Shown here: positions 1 to 30,852 of the stretch, one piece after another
Layout of the letters: the number at the start of each line of letters is the position of its first letter
How positions within the stretch are numbered: the stretch's first letter is position 1
Assembly (NCBI GenBank): GCA_018657065.1
Contig: JABHXU010000008.1
Span: 1-64,000, forward strand
Length of the DNA: 64,000 bases
Direction: 5' to 3'
DNA from: an archaeon
GTDB taxonomy: Archaea; Nanobdellota; Nanobdellia; Woesearchaeales; GW2011-AR15
Position numbers and translations under genes: made by a program
The notes under the pieces: model-generated
The model's input: the letters and a program-made list of their open reading frames with translations, nothing else
Databases searched by the model: none
What the model was told of the DNA's origin: nothing

Positions 1-324
1 ATATTCCTTATTTACTATTAATTCAGGTACTACATCAAAACTTCCTGAGAGAATATGATTTTCTAATGCGCTTGATGACACATCATTACTTAAAACAACA
101 ATTGTCTCTAAATTTCCAGTTTGTATTTCTGGAATATCTTCAACTTCTATCGCCTTAATTTCGGAAAATTCTCTAAATCTAAATGAACCAGATACATCCA
201 TAGATTGAAATTTAGCAATACCTATAGCAAATCCAAAATTATCTTCTTGAGTCTTTTTTATACTTAACAAATTATCCCCACCTAGAATCCTCATGCTCGA
301 AGGACTTGGTATTCCGACTTTCAT
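1..324 (-). CDS. Partial CDS (runs off left edge), N-terminus MKVGIPSPSSMRILGGDNLLSIKKTQEDNFGFAIGIAKFQSMDV...; family not recognised
   Basis: Open frame on minus strand from CAT at 322-324 to position 1 (108 codons, no stop); absent from ORF track because it is truncated. Confidence 0.7.
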   Translation of the reverse strand, partial: MKVGIPSPSSMRILGGDNLLSIKKTQEDNFGFAIGIAKFQSMDVSGSFRFREFSEIKAIEVEDIPEIQTGNLETIVVLSNDVSSSALENHILSGSFDVVPELIVNKEY

Positions 325-428
325 GTTACGCGACTAAAAAGTAATTTTGCGTAACAACTATCAAGTATAAATACTTGATATAACGGTTGCGGCACAGCTT
401 AGGAATTACACCTAAATTTCCCTTAAAA
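325..428 (-). promoter_or_regulatory. Cobalamin-riboswitch-like leader with TATA box upstream and start-proximal hairpin
   Basis: Minus strand reads AGGGAAATTTAGGTGTAATTCCTAAGCTGTGCCGCAACCGTTAT, close to the B12 element core AGGGAA..GGTGnnAATCC..GCTGnCCCGCAACnGT; hairpin GTTACGC/GCGTAAC (325-331/349-355) abuts the ATG and its loop AATTAC is complementary to GTAATT in the P5 loop. Confidence 0.65.
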
Positions 429-518
429 TTTTAATTATTTTTCTAGTATAAATAGTTTTTGCATAATTTTAAATATCAGTTTTAATTAACTAATCTAGAA
501 TAAAAAATAAGATTTAAA

Positions 519-25945: not shown

Positions 25946-25993
25946 TCACAAGATATTGTGTATTCTTAAAATTAAACATACAACATATTGTAT
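25946..25993. promoter_or_regulatory. Two tandem NrdR-box-like palindromes
   Basis: TCACAAGATATTGTGT (25946-25961) and ATACAACATATTGTAT (25978-25993), 32 bp centre to centre, upstream of nrdJ start at 26018. Confidence 0.65.
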
Positions 25994-26017
25994 ATTAGTA
26001 GAAAACGGTGGGGAAAG

Positions 26018-28105
26018 ATGGGAATTAAAGAAGATTTTGAAGATTACATCAAAGAAGTTCCTAAAGAAGATAAATTAGGATTAAATGATAATCAACTTAG
26101 AATCATATATGCAAAATATTTAATGAGAGATCCAAAAGGTAATGTTATTGAAACACCTAAACAAATGTTTCAAAGAATTTCTAAAACTATTGCTATGCCT
26201 GAATCAATGTATAAGACAGATGAAGAAGTAGCAATAATTGCTGATAAATTTTATAACATGATGTCAACTTTGGATTTTTTACCTGGTGGAAGAACAATAG
26301 CTAATGCTGGAACTCCAGTAAAAAATTTGGCAAATTGTTTTGTTATTCCAGTTGAAGATAGTATGGAAGGTATTTTTGAAGCAGTAAAAAAAGCTGCTTT
26401 AATTCAAAAAAGAGGAGGAGGAGTGGGATATTGTTTCTCAACTTTAAGACCTAGAAATTCTTGGGTTTCAGGATGCAGTGGAGTTGCATCAGGTCCAATT
26501 TCATTCATGAGAGTATTTGATGTTATGTGTTCAACAATTATGCAAGGAAATAGAAGAGGAGCACAAATGGCAACATTCCATGTTTCTCACCCAGACATCT
26601 TAGATTTTGTAACAGCTAAAGACGATTTAACACAATTAACTAATTTCAATATTTCTGTTATGGTTGATGACAAATTTATGACTGCTGTTGAAAATGATGG
26701 ACCTTACGATTTAGTTGATCCTCATTCAAATAAAGTAGCTACTACTCTACGAGCTCGTGATTTATTTGACAAAATTGTATATCATGCTTGGAAAACTGGT
26801 GAACCAGGACTTCTATTTGTTGACACAGCTAATAGATATAATACAGTTAGACATTTAGGGGAATTTAAAGCAACAAATCCTTGTGCTGAAATTTGGTTAC
26901 TTGATCACGAAGTTTGTAATTTAGGTAGTATAAACCTAAATAAAATGACAAAAATTGTTGAAGGTAAAACACAAGTAGATTATGAAAAAATTAAAAATAT
27001 TACACATCTAGGAATTCGCTTTTTAGATAATGTTATTGATGCTGGTGAATACCCAACACCTGAAATTGCTATGATGGCTAAAAAAACCAGAAGAATTGGC
27101 CTCGGTGTCATGGGTTTTGCAGATTTATTATATCAATTAGGTCTTCCTTATTCTAGCGAAGAAGGTAGAAAAATTGCTAAGGAAGTAATGAAAATTATTA
27201 ATGAAGAAGGTTGGAAAGCAAGTGAAGAAATTGCTAAAGAAAAAGGTGCTTTTCCTGCAATAAGAGGTAGTGATTTTGAAAAACAAGGTAGAATTGTCAG
27301 AAATTGTGCTATAACTGCTATTGCCCCAACTGGAACATTAAGTATGGTTGCAAATACATCTGGAGGATGTGAACCTAATTTTGCTTTAGCTTATATTAAA
27401 AATAGTCATTCAATTAAAGAAACATTTACTTATGTTAATCAACATTTTGAAAATATAGCTAAACAAAGAGGCTTTTATTCTAAAGAATTAATGGAAACAA
27501 TTGCAAACCAAGGCACTTTAGATGGAATTGATGAAGTTCCGCAAGATGTTAAAAAAATCTTTGAAGTTTCTTTTAATATTTCTGCAGAAGAACATATTTT
27601 AATGCAAGCAGCATTTCAAGAACATGTTAGTAATGCTGTATCTAAAACTATTAATTTTTCAAATTCAGCTACAATTGACCAGGTTAAAGAAGGTTATATG
27701 CTAGCTTGGAAATCAGGTACAAAAGGCGCTACTGTTTATAGAGATGGTTCAAGAGGAAATCAAGTTTTAAATATTAAAGAAGTTAAAAAAGAAGCTAATA
27801 AAGAAACTCCAAAAGTTGAAGAGATTAAAATTCAAGAAAAACCTTCTGAACCTATGGTCGAATCAATTTTAAAAAATAATGAACTTGAAACTGATGAATC
27901 CGTTGAAAATTCTACAGAGATGCCTTCAACAATTCAAGTTGCACAAATGACTGCAACTTCTGGTGATGCTTCAGTAGTTTTAGAACAGCCTCAAATTTTA
28001 AGTTCAAAACAAATGACTGATTGTCCAGAATGCAAAACAGATCTTGTTAAACAAGAAGGATGTGTTTTATGTCCTGATTGTGGCTGGAGTGCATGTAGTC
28101 ATTAA
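26018..28105 (+). CDS. nrdJ: Adenosylcobalamin-dependent (class II) ribonucleotide reductase, catalytic (track ORF start 25988)
   Basis: NCFVIPVEDS, NPCAEIWLLDHEVCNLGSINL (N..C..E..C), APTGTLSMVANTSGG, C-terminal Zn ribbon CPECKTDLVKQEGCVLCPDCGWSAC. Confidence 0.9.
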   Translation: MGIKEDFEDYIKEVPKEDKLGLNDNQLRIIYAKYLMRDPKGNVIETPKQMFQRISKTIAMPESMYKTDEEVAIIADKFYNMMSTLDFLPGGRTIANAGTPVKNLANCFVIPVEDSMEGIFEAVKKAALIQKRGGGVGYCFSTLRPRNSWVSGCSGVASGPISFMRVFDVMCSTIMQGNRRGAQMATFHVSHPDILDFVTAKDDLTQLTNFNISVMVDDKFMTAVENDGPYDLVDPHSNKVATTLRARDLFDKIVYHAWKTGEPGLLFVDTANRYNTVRHLGEFKATNPCAEIWLLDHEVCNLGSINLNKMTKIVEGKTQVDYEKIKNITHLGIRFLDNVIDAGEYPTPEIAMMAKKTRRIGLGVMGFADLLYQLGLPYSSEEGRKIAKEVMKIINEEGWKASEEIAKEKGAFPAIRGSDFEKQGRIVRNCAITAIAPTGTLSMVANTSGGCEPNFALAYIKNSHSIKETFTYVNQHFENIAKQRGFYSKELMETIANQGTLDGIDEVPQDVKKIFEVSFNISAEEHILMQAAFQEHVSNAVSKTINFSNSATIDQVKEGYMLAWKSGTKGATVYRDGSRGNQVLNIKEVKKEANKETPKVEEIKIQEKPSEPMVESILKNNELETDESVENSTEMPSTIQVAQMTATSGDASVVLEQPQILSSKQMTDCPECKTDLVKQEGCVLCPDCGWSACSH

Positions 28106-28169
28106 TTTTTTTCTTTAATTTATTCTTTAACGTACTAAAACTTTAAAAATACATAAACAATCTTTTTTT

Positions 28170-30200
28170 ATGGGGTGTATTATGGGAGTTTCTAAAGTTA
28201 GAAAGAGAGATGGAACTATAGTTAGATTTAAACCTTCAAAAGTTTCAACTGCTATTGAAAAATCTATGCTTGCTGTAGGTATGGATGATGATAATTTATC
28301 TAAAGATCTAGCTGAAAAAGTCATTGATTACGTTAACGAAATCCATGATGATGATTATATAATTGATATTGAAGAAATTCAAGATATTGTTGAAAAAATT
28401 TTAATTGATGACAACCAAGCTAAATTAGCAAAAGCTTATATTCTTTATAGACAAAAAAGAGCAGAAATTAGAAGATTAAAAGAACATATTCTAGGAAGAA
28501 TTGAAGATTCCAAATTAAATGTTAATGGACTTCTTATAGCCAAATCAAGATATTTATTAAAAGATGATCAAGGTAAAGTTATTGAAACTCCTAAAGAAAT
28601 GTTTAGAAGAGTAGCTAAACATATTGCAAGTGCTGAAAGCTTATATAATACACATGAAGTTGATATTGAAGAACTAGAAGAAGAATTTAACGAAATGATT
28701 TATTCTTTAGAATTTATACCTTCAGGTAGAATTCTTGCTAATTCTGGAACAAAAAATAGTATGTTGTTTAGTAGTTTTGTTATTCCTATTGAAGATAGTA
28801 TGAAAGGTATTTTTAGAGCTCTTTATTATAAAGCTTTGATCCAAAGATTAGATGGTGGAACAGGTTTTTCATTTTCAAGACTTCGACCAAAAGGAATGAA
28901 ACTTTCAACTACTTCAGGATATGCGTCAGGTCCAACTGCTTTTATAAAATTATTTGATCATGCTAGTAGTTTAAGGGTAGCCGCAGGAAACAGAAAACCT
29001 GCTAACATGGGATCATTAAATGTTGAACATCCCGATATTATTGAATTTGTTACCATGAAAGACAGAAGAGAAATTAAAAATTTTAATATCTCAGTAGAAA
29101 TGACTGACAGATTCATGGAAGCTGTCAAAAATCACACTCAATATCCTTTAGTTGATCCTAATACTAATGAAGAAATAGATAAGGTTGACGCAAATAATAT
29201 TTTTAATTTAATTGTAACAATGGCCTGGAAAAATGGAGATCCTGGTGTTTTATTTATTGATAGAATAAATAGTGATAACCCTCTTCCATCAATTAGTAAA
29301 ATAGAAACAACTGATCCTTGTGGTGATCAAATGCTCTTACCATATCAGGGAGGAAATTTAGGTGCAATTAATTTAAGTAAATTTGCAAGAAATAAAAAGA
29401 TTAAATGGAAACAACTAGAAAAAGTAACTAAACTAGCTGTAAGATTTTTAGATAATACTATTGATTTAAGCAAATTTCCAGTTAAACAAATTGATGATAT
29501 TGTTAAAGGAAGTCGAGCTATTGGCCTAGGTATTATGGGCTTTGCTGACATGCTTTATAAATTAAGGATTCCCTATAATAGTGAAAAAGCTTTAGAAACT
29601 GCTGACAAAATTATGAAATTTATTTCACAATCAGCAATGGAAGCATCTAAAGAATTAGCTAATAAAAAAGGTGTTTTTCCTTTTATTGAAAAAAGTATTT
29701 ACAAAAATAAAATTAAGCTTAGAAATTCTTCATTAATTGCAATTGCTCCAACTGGATCAAGAAGTATTTTAGCTGAAACCTCACCAGGTATTGAACCAAA
29801 TTTTGCATTAGGTTATACTAGAAAAATTTTAGGTAGTACTGAAATAGTTCAAATAAATAAAATTCTTGAAAATTTGCTCAAAGAAAAAGATATTTATTCA
29901 GAAGAAGTTGTTAGAAAAATTGTTAAAAACAGATCTTTAGATGAAATTGAAATTGAAGAAAATCTCAAAGAAGTGTTTGTAACTGCACATGATATAAATC
30001 CTGAGTGGCATATAAAAATGCAATCTATTTTTCAAAAACATATTGATAATGGAATTTCTAAAACAATTAATTTTCCTAAAAATGCTACAATGGATGATAT
30101 TAAAAAAGCATTTATCATGGCTTATGATTCTGGATGTAAAGGTATAACTGTTTATAGAGAAGGAAGCCTACAAGAAGAGGTGATTTCTTTTGGAAAATAA
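28170..30200 (+). CDS. RNR large-subunit paralog with N-terminal ATP-cone; redox Cys absent, possibly non-catalytic
   Basis: ATP-cone VRKRDGTIVRFKPSKVSTAIEKSM; SSFVIPIEDS; DPCGDQMLLPYQGGNLGAINL; no C-terminal Cys domain. Confidence 0.85.
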   Translation: MGCIMGVSKVRKRDGTIVRFKPSKVSTAIEKSMLAVGMDDDNLSKDLAEKVIDYVNEIHDDDYIIDIEEIQDIVEKILIDDNQAKLAKAYILYRQKRAEIRRLKEHILGRIEDSKLNVNGLLIAKSRYLLKDDQGKVIETPKEMFRRVAKHIASAESLYNTHEVDIEELEEEFNEMIYSLEFIPSGRILANSGTKNSMLFSSFVIPIEDSMKGIFRALYYKALIQRLDGGTGFSFSRLRPKGMKLSTTSGYASGPTAFIKLFDHASSLRVAAGNRKPANMGSLNVEHPDIIEFVTMKDRREIKNFNISVEMTDRFMEAVKNHTQYPLVDPNTNEEIDKVDANNIFNLIVTMAWKNGDPGVLFIDRINSDNPLPSISKIETTDPCGDQMLLPYQGGNLGAINLSKFARNKKIKWKQLEKVTKLAVRFLDNTIDLSKFPVKQIDDIVKGSRAIGLGIMGFADMLYKLRIPYNSEKALETADKIMKFISQSAMEASKELANKKGVFPFIEKSIYKNKIKLRNSSLIAIAPTGSRSILAETSPGIEPNFALGYTRKILGSTEIVQINKILENLLKEKDIYSEEVVRKIVKNRSLDEIEIEENLKEVFVTAHDINPEWHIKMQSIFQKHIDNGISKTINFPKNATMDDIKKAFIMAYDSGCKGITVYREGSLQEEVISFGK

Positions 30201-30852
30201 AAAAGTCAATGATATGCAAAGCTTATCAGGACATAAAAATTCAAAAGAAACTTCTCGTGAAAAACAGTATACTCTCAAAATTTATACAAAAAGGGGTGAC
30301 GGTGGAGAAACTTCTTTATGTAATGGATCTAGAACTTTTAAAGATTCATTAAGAGTTGAAGCATATGGTAGTGTTGATGAAGTTAGTTCATATATTGGTC
30401 TAGCTATTGTTAAAACTTCTCAAGCAGATCTTAAACATCATTTAATGGAAATTCAAAAAGATTTATTTTCTGTTGGAAGTAATTTAGCATTACCTGGAAT
30501 TTTGGCACAATCTCAAATAGGAAAAACATCTCCAATTGAACAAAAAATTCCTAAAATTACTGATGAAATGATTACTAAATTGGAAAATTTAATTGATAAA
30601 TATGATAAAGAACTACCTCCACTACACAAATTTATTTTATCTGGTGGAATTGAAGTTTCAACTTTACTTCATGTAGCTAGAGCAATTTGTAGAAGAGCTG
30701 AAAGACGAGTTGTTTCTTTAAAAAGAAGTGAAGAAATTAATAAAAATGTTCTAATATATATGAACAGGTTATCTGATTATTTATTTACAGCAGCAAGACT
30801 TGCCACTCATAGATCTGGAAAAGAAGATCATAAGTGGAATCCTAAAGGGTGA
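30190..30852 (+). CDS. Cob(I)alamin adenosyltransferase (PduO type)
   Basis: [49 protein letters not shown]. Confidence 0.92.

Follow-up and report, generated by a model that had tools for sequence, protein, structure and literature searches.

Is the leader on the minus strand at the beginning of this contig an archaeal cobalamin riboswitch and, if so, how would it act on the gene behind it? The element is encoded on the minus strand of contig JABHXU010000008.1 of assembly GCA_018657065.1 (genome G000, 1.49 Mb in 25 contigs); the window, meaning the whole 64,000-nucleotide stretch that was analysed, is the start of this contig (C10). A sequence-only reading had proposed a compact, cobalamin-riboswitch-like leader here, and this central idea is supported by the covariance-model match, by conservation among relatives, one of them an archaeon with a closed genome, and by target genes related to B12. 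We consider it about 90% probable that the element is a corrinoid (B12) riboswitch of the cobalamin clan, nearest to AdoCbl-II (class II type), that works in this archaeon as a translational OFF switch through L5-L13 and P13. The evidence comprises homology in sequence and structure, covariation, L5-L13 complementarity, presence in a closed genome and B12-linked genes downstream of the copies in relatives.

The Rfam AdoCbl-II model (RF01689) matches its full length at window positions 438..302 (minus strand) with 35.5 bits (E=6.5e-7, 351 bases searched), one bit short of the gathering cut-off of 36.5 bits. A paralogue, the second copy in this genome, lies on contig C8 ahead of a DUF4346 gene and scores 34.1 bits. 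The low score of the window copy is attributable to ~60 inserted bases in loop 6 and to a P3 with two standard pairs. As it misses the threshold by that one bit, a scan of the whole window against Rfam at gathering thresholds lists two tRNAs and nothing else. Among the models of cobalamin clan CL00101, AdoCbl-II is the top-scoring family in every case, and six other genomes of the order have between them seven loci that score above the RF01689 cut-off (38.4-57 bits). On the Rfam check suggested by the sequence-only reading, the window copy falls narrowly short of the cut-off, and these seven loci in relatives lie above it. One of the above-cut-off copies is in archaeon GW2011_AR15 (G002, hereafter AR15), which is of the same genus as the window and has a closed, single-contig chromosome (CP010425.1). 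NCBI lists this organism as ‘unclassified Archaea’; we take it to belong to Woesearchaeota.

Custom models extend the family. One built from nine copies found four new copies at 60-69 bits in 295 genomes, none of the four being in the training set. This brings the total to 13 loci in 11 genomes, two in G000 and 11 in ten others of the order, from a sample of roughly 300-360 species of Woesearchaeales. A model built solely from the 11 copies outside G000 (R3) finds the window copy at 429..302 with 48.5 bits (E=2.4e-12, 78 kb searched) and recovers the C8 paralogue at E=3.7e-7. Conservation of the core in relatives, on which the proposal had been made to depend, is therefore clearly in its favour, and the sequences quoted in its support are all present on the minus strand, including AGGGAAATTTAGGTGTAATTCCTAAGCTGTGCCGCAACCGTTAT. 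The class-wide Rfam search scored few candidates per genome and overlooked members that the custom models recovered. Among 382 genomes sampled across the phylum, no copy was found outside the order; few candidates were scored per genome there too, so this absence is weak evidence. Low matches of 18-21 bits (L027-L030, L033) were dismissed on reading.

The features of the locus, all on the minus strand, are as follows.

443..455, minus: TATA-like box CTATTTATACTAG of the leader promoter, from the sequence
286..428, minus: whole riboswitch (aptamer and P13), delimited by RF01689 (438..302), R3 (429..302) and, for P13, folding; its start is the probable transcription start at ~428-424
421..425, minus: P3 5' strand TAAGG, from the R3 alignment; its standard pairs are two G-C pairs with 309-308 only
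411..415, minus: P4 5' strand TTAGG, with compensatory changes in the paralogue and relatives
404..410, minus: L4 TGTAATT, named following PMC9600662 and PMC10653944
399..403, minus: P4 3' strand CCTAA, from covariation counts and the R3 alignment
387..397, minus: P5/L5 CTGTGCCGCAA, with the L5 kissing bases GCCG at 393-390, from the sequence and the L5-L13 comparison
384..386, minus: P6 5' strand CCG, pairing with 316-314, invariant in 13/13
360..379, minus: insertion hairpin 1 in loop 6, ATCAAGTA/TACTTGAT (379-372/367-360), by folding; in the G000 copies only, absent in AR15
325..355, minus: insertion hairpin 2 in loop 6, GTTACGC/GCGTAAC (355-349/331-325), holding AATTAC at 346-341, from the sequence and folding
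308..318, minus: conserved 3' box GTCGGAATACC, comprising P6 3' strand CGG (316-314), J6/3 (313-310) and P3 3' strand CC (309-308), from the R3 alignment
286..306, minus: P13, AGTCCTT (306-300) and GAGGATT (292-286), with L13 and its kissing bases CG(A)GC at 299-295, predicted by folding (as AGUCCUU/GAGGAUU) and L5-L13 complementarity
279..283, minus: Shine-Dalgarno-like AGGTG; the genome carries the anti-Shine-Dalgarno sequence GGATCACCTCCT
268..270, minus: probable start codon TTG, from Shine-Dalgarno spacing and paralogue comparison; the alternative is ATG 294-292 within P13/L13
1..270, minus: 5' part of the controlled gene, whose frame runs onto contig C22 through a 141-base identical overlap (~790-798 aa in total)

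The helices of this architecture covary, as a comparative test of the original proposal would have it. In the 13-sequence alignment, with the insertion taken out of the two G000 rows for pair counting, 85.1% of cells are paired versus 70.3% in shuffles, 10 of 16 pairs have changes on both sides, and every one of the slid controls has far lower pairing. Pairing of the four-way core P3-P6 is kept; P3 is weak in the window copy and, as in AR15, down to two standard pairs. P4 reads TTTAGG/CCTAAG in the window and TCCAGG/CCTGGG in the paralogue, a compensatory difference, and all core bases are intact in both G000 copies. The minimum-free-energy fold of the window copy is no better than those of shuffled sequences (z -0.89) and is not diagnostic. 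By the convention of the literature the UCCCG loop is called L5 (PMC10653944), so the helix and loop first labelled P5 and L5 (TTAGG/CCTAA and GTAATT) are P4 and L4. The imperfectly pairing P4 (GGG/GCC) that had been seen as a weakness was a mis-assignment, and the real P4 pairs well. The extent first given, 325-428, is too short: the 3' box and P13/L13 lie 3' of the supposed start codon.

In the paralogue, ATA stands in place of that start codon, an ATG at 324. The codon also comes before the conserved 3' box, and we consequently regard it as part of the RNA. The hairpin abutting it, originally taken to contain L13, is a lineage-specific insertion in loop 6. When the window copy is aligned with those of C8 and AR15, CCGT-AAAGCCGG is continuous in AR15 at the site where both G000 copies have two hairpins; relatives have a short loop 6, and the two-hairpin insertion is confined to G000. 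The second insertion hairpin takes the form GTCACGC/GCGTGAC in the paralogue, again a compensatory change. The gene itself probably starts at TTG 270 rather than at ATG 294, judging from the sequence. Upstream, the TATA box noted earlier is present, and a transcription start near the AGGGAA is plausible. TATA-like sequences occur ~31-40 bases before the aptamer GG in most of the 13 loci, a position-specific enrichment that is statistically weak (68 of 2000 shuffles are as high).

A predicted pairing interaction would connect the aptamer to the region following it. At every one of the 13 loci a TCG(A/T)G(C/G)-like loop occurs 3' of the 3' box, and in the window L5 GCCG can pair with its CG(A)GC. 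L5 and L13 are fully complementary in 13/13, in three base combinations: GCCG with CG-A/T-GC (five loci), CCCG with CG(A/T)GG or CGGG (seven loci) and CGCG with CGCG (one locus). By exact reshuffling, such agreement would arise with a probability of 1e-4, or 0.002 when each family and type is counted once; the bulged L13 base was omitted by hand, so the test covers four paired positions. In the kiss of env8HyCbl a mismatch and a bulge are reported (PMC10653944). Complementarity thus supports L5-L13 kissing between the aptamer and expression platform. The kissing loop first proposed, GTAATT with AATTAC, does exist as a hexamer complement but is at chance level and not conserved. In dinucleotide shuffles the exact hexamer recurs in 7% and some six-base complement of that loop in 17%, the complementarity is lost in the paralogue, and AR15 is without the whole hairpin.

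Transcription would probably begin just upstream of the aptamer, and the RNA would fold as P3-P4-P5-P6. With a corrinoid bound, L5 (GCCG) would kiss L13 (CG-A-GC) and the P13 hairpin would be stabilised, which may block the adjacent ribosome-binding site and start codon and turn translation OFF. In the established mechanism of btuB and env8HyCbl, the kiss stabilises P13 and hides the ribosome-binding site (PMC10653944). In the paralogue, the P13 3' strand is itself a Shine-Dalgarno sequence, AAGGTGAT (CCUU..AAGGUGAU), a few bases before an ATG; in AR15 it is AGGGTGA (UCCUU..AAGGGUGA), similarly placed. The anti-Shine-Dalgarno sequence, the same in G000 and AR15, is complementary to both. Hiding of the ribosome-binding site by P13 is likely on this analysis. 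The arrangement is clear in the paralogue and AR15 and is presumed by extension for the window copy, where P13 ends two bases short of the Shine-Dalgarno sequence, so that it would either obstruct this site sterically or act directly on ATG 294. Three parts of this explanation are our inference: that a ligand binds, which way the control runs, and that the block in the window copy is steric. Platforms of the CCCG type differ: their P13 is GGA..TCC, and beyond it seven loci share a conserved UUUCU motif. This motif (often GGAUUUCU) lies ~5-15 bases after P13 in L006, L008, L009, L011, L012, L022 and L023, with different genes downstream.

Corrinoid-related genes occur downstream of the element in relatives and behind the paralogue, and the target of the window copy is without recognised function. 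The element precedes a CobA/BtuR corrinoid adenosyltransferase in two genomes (G059, G004) and an ECF transporter S component in three, as the first gene in G179 and after another protein in G424 and G021; in G424 a DUF4430 protein is encoded behind the S component. The S components match generic ECF models and not a B12-specific one; what points to B12 uptake is the riboswitch together with DUF4430, a domain presumably related to the B12-binding transcobalamin C-terminal domain. In G000 (C8) and AR15 the element is ahead of DUF4346, the C-terminal domain of some MtrA proteins. Its match to the C-terminal portion of an MtrA model suggests that these proteins have to do with corrinoids or pterins. 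They stand alone under the riboswitch (L001:1660-2004 and L010:1599-1937, respectively). One Woesearchaeota metagenome-assembled genome has DUF4346 without the element (L014), so the gene can occur apart from the switch. In G466 the element precedes a protein with an ATP cone and a class I ribonucleotide reductase beta domain, a B12-independent enzyme. This genome also encodes the B12-dependent reductase NrdJ (662.7 bits). Control of the B12-independent enzyme by the switch is therefore logical, since the B12 enzyme would be used when B12 is present.

The window's target protein has no Pfam or NCBIfam match and no homologue in 80 relatives besides its own continuation. A weak local match joins it (window 1-270 plus G000:C22:1-2244) to the C-terminal part of a 1283 aa protein of G424 (E=0.002 in a 14-protein search), encoded at L039:2132-5980 ahead of the ECF S gene. 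Elsewhere, three genomes encode, behind the ECF S gene, membrane-anchored proteins of ~450-470 aa that form one family and have no Pfam match (L039:7028-8440, L041:2983-4362 and reverse-complement bases 3400-4749 of L042; mutual BLAST E 1e-15 to 1e-52); these are possible corrinoid-capture proteins. The class II reductases and adenosyltransferase mentioned early on as giving B12 a role in this organism are indeed encoded on the window's contig: two adjacent class II ribonucleotide reductase genes of B12-dependent type, one with an ATP cone, are followed by a PduO-type cobalamin adenosyltransferase (window 25988-30852). In G021 (C17:16995-19808), NrdJ is interrupted by ~1125 in-frame bases that look like an intein, the profile matching at 2-282 and 281-606 within one 1124 aa frame.

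Among known riboswitches, the archaeal element most resembles RF01689 (‘AdoCbl-variant’), a family described from marine sequences (metagenomes; PMC2864571). The two share the four-helix core P3-P6, the GGAAA junction, the P4 loop GNG..AAUUC, CCGCA(A/G)CCGU and, in most relatives, a compact P6. The archaeal element differs in its host, in a P3 that is often very short and probably starts near the first transcribed base, in the L5 GCCG subtype, in the two-hairpin loop 6 insertion of G000 and in lacking UCU in J6/3. AdoCbl-selective class IIb is marked by GGAA in J3/4 and UCU in J6/3 (PMC11260477). In the archaeal element GGAA is present, and J6/3 reads AANN, never UCU, so we do not file it as class IIb and give it neither a IIa nor a IIb label. 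With class I (RF00174) it shares the clan, core consensus, a variable P6 accessory region and, presumably, a P13 that governs translation in the manner of E. coli btuB. However, no class I P7-P12 peripheral domain is apparent: loop 6 of the relatives is short, and the G000 insertion, absent from them, is two hairpins. The predicted L5-L13 kiss with its bulged L13 base is a further feature shared with RF01689, of the sort reported for env8HyCbl (PMC10653944). The fluoride riboswitch of Thermococcus kodakarensis is, according to PMC8241225, the natural archaeal riboswitch that has experimental support; it too is cis-acting with presumed translational control in an archaeon, but differs in ligand, fold and lineage.

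Could the archaeal attribution be an artefact of a mis-binned bacterial contig? Most of the genomes are metagenome assemblies, and one contaminant-like case did turn up in the searches, a Bacteroidota-like class I element in G511. For AR15, a closed chromosome of the same genus, contamination is rejected; the window contig encodes aIF2 gamma, proteasome alpha, an exosome Rrp4-like subunit and archaeal Spt5, and a proteasome beta gene lies beside the riboswitch operon in three relatives (both read by eye). We consider contamination extremely improbable. The G511 element (C9:3261-3330, L026) precedes a secreted beta-propeller-like protein in a genome with 6% contamination, and its contig is probably a contaminant. 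The gating first envisaged, in which the loop at 410-404 kisses AATTAC and controls ATG 324, is scarcely credible either: its perfect six-base complementarity in the window copy has to be set against a 7-17% chance expectation, its loss in the paralogue, the hairpin missing from AR15, a start codon that is not conserved and sits before the 3' box, and a different L5-L13 pair that is complementary throughout.

It is also conceivable that the G000 copies are relics of a duplicated former riboswitch that has lost its ligand response, as the two-pair P3 (here and in AR15), the sub-threshold score and the large insertion might indicate. Yet the diverged copies have kept P4, both insertion hairpins and L5/L13 paired via compensatory changes, with the core bases intact, and we think degeneration unlikely. 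An RNA of the same fold that has come to recognise a non-corrinoid ligand would account for those controlled genes, the window's included, that are without a known B12 link. Against this, CobA (twice), ECF with DUF4430, DUF4346 and the B12-independent reductase are B12-linked or plausibly so, and the core consensus is kept, making a change of ligand very unlikely. A corrinoid riboswitch remains our preferred reading of the locus.

This is a known kind of riboswitch, newly exemplified in a domain in which it is little documented. The literature searched, few subscription papers among it, describes no specific archaeal cobalamin riboswitch. One paper briefly mentions both bacteria and archaea as hosts of the class (PMC9600662), and automatic Rfam annotation may already flag the AR15 copy, so we do not claim absolute priority. 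On balance, we think it probable that Woesearchaeales have a B12 regulon under class-II-like riboswitches, the first described in Archaea in the literature searched, that covers adenosylation, probable ECF/DUF4430 uptake, DUF4346, class I ribonucleotide reductase beta and large unassigned proteins, and that operates partly by P13 sequestration of an archaeal Shine-Dalgarno sequence. Given that the element precedes genes for B12 activation, probable B12 uptake and B12-independent replacement, these archaea probably rely on RNA to regulate how they use B12. DPANN archaea rarely have complete cobalamin synthesis (PMC8421398). If true, the finding would show how small, probably dependent DPANN archaea manage a scavenged vitamin, and the riboswitch would link DUF4346, DUF4430 and the large unassigned proteins to B12 use.
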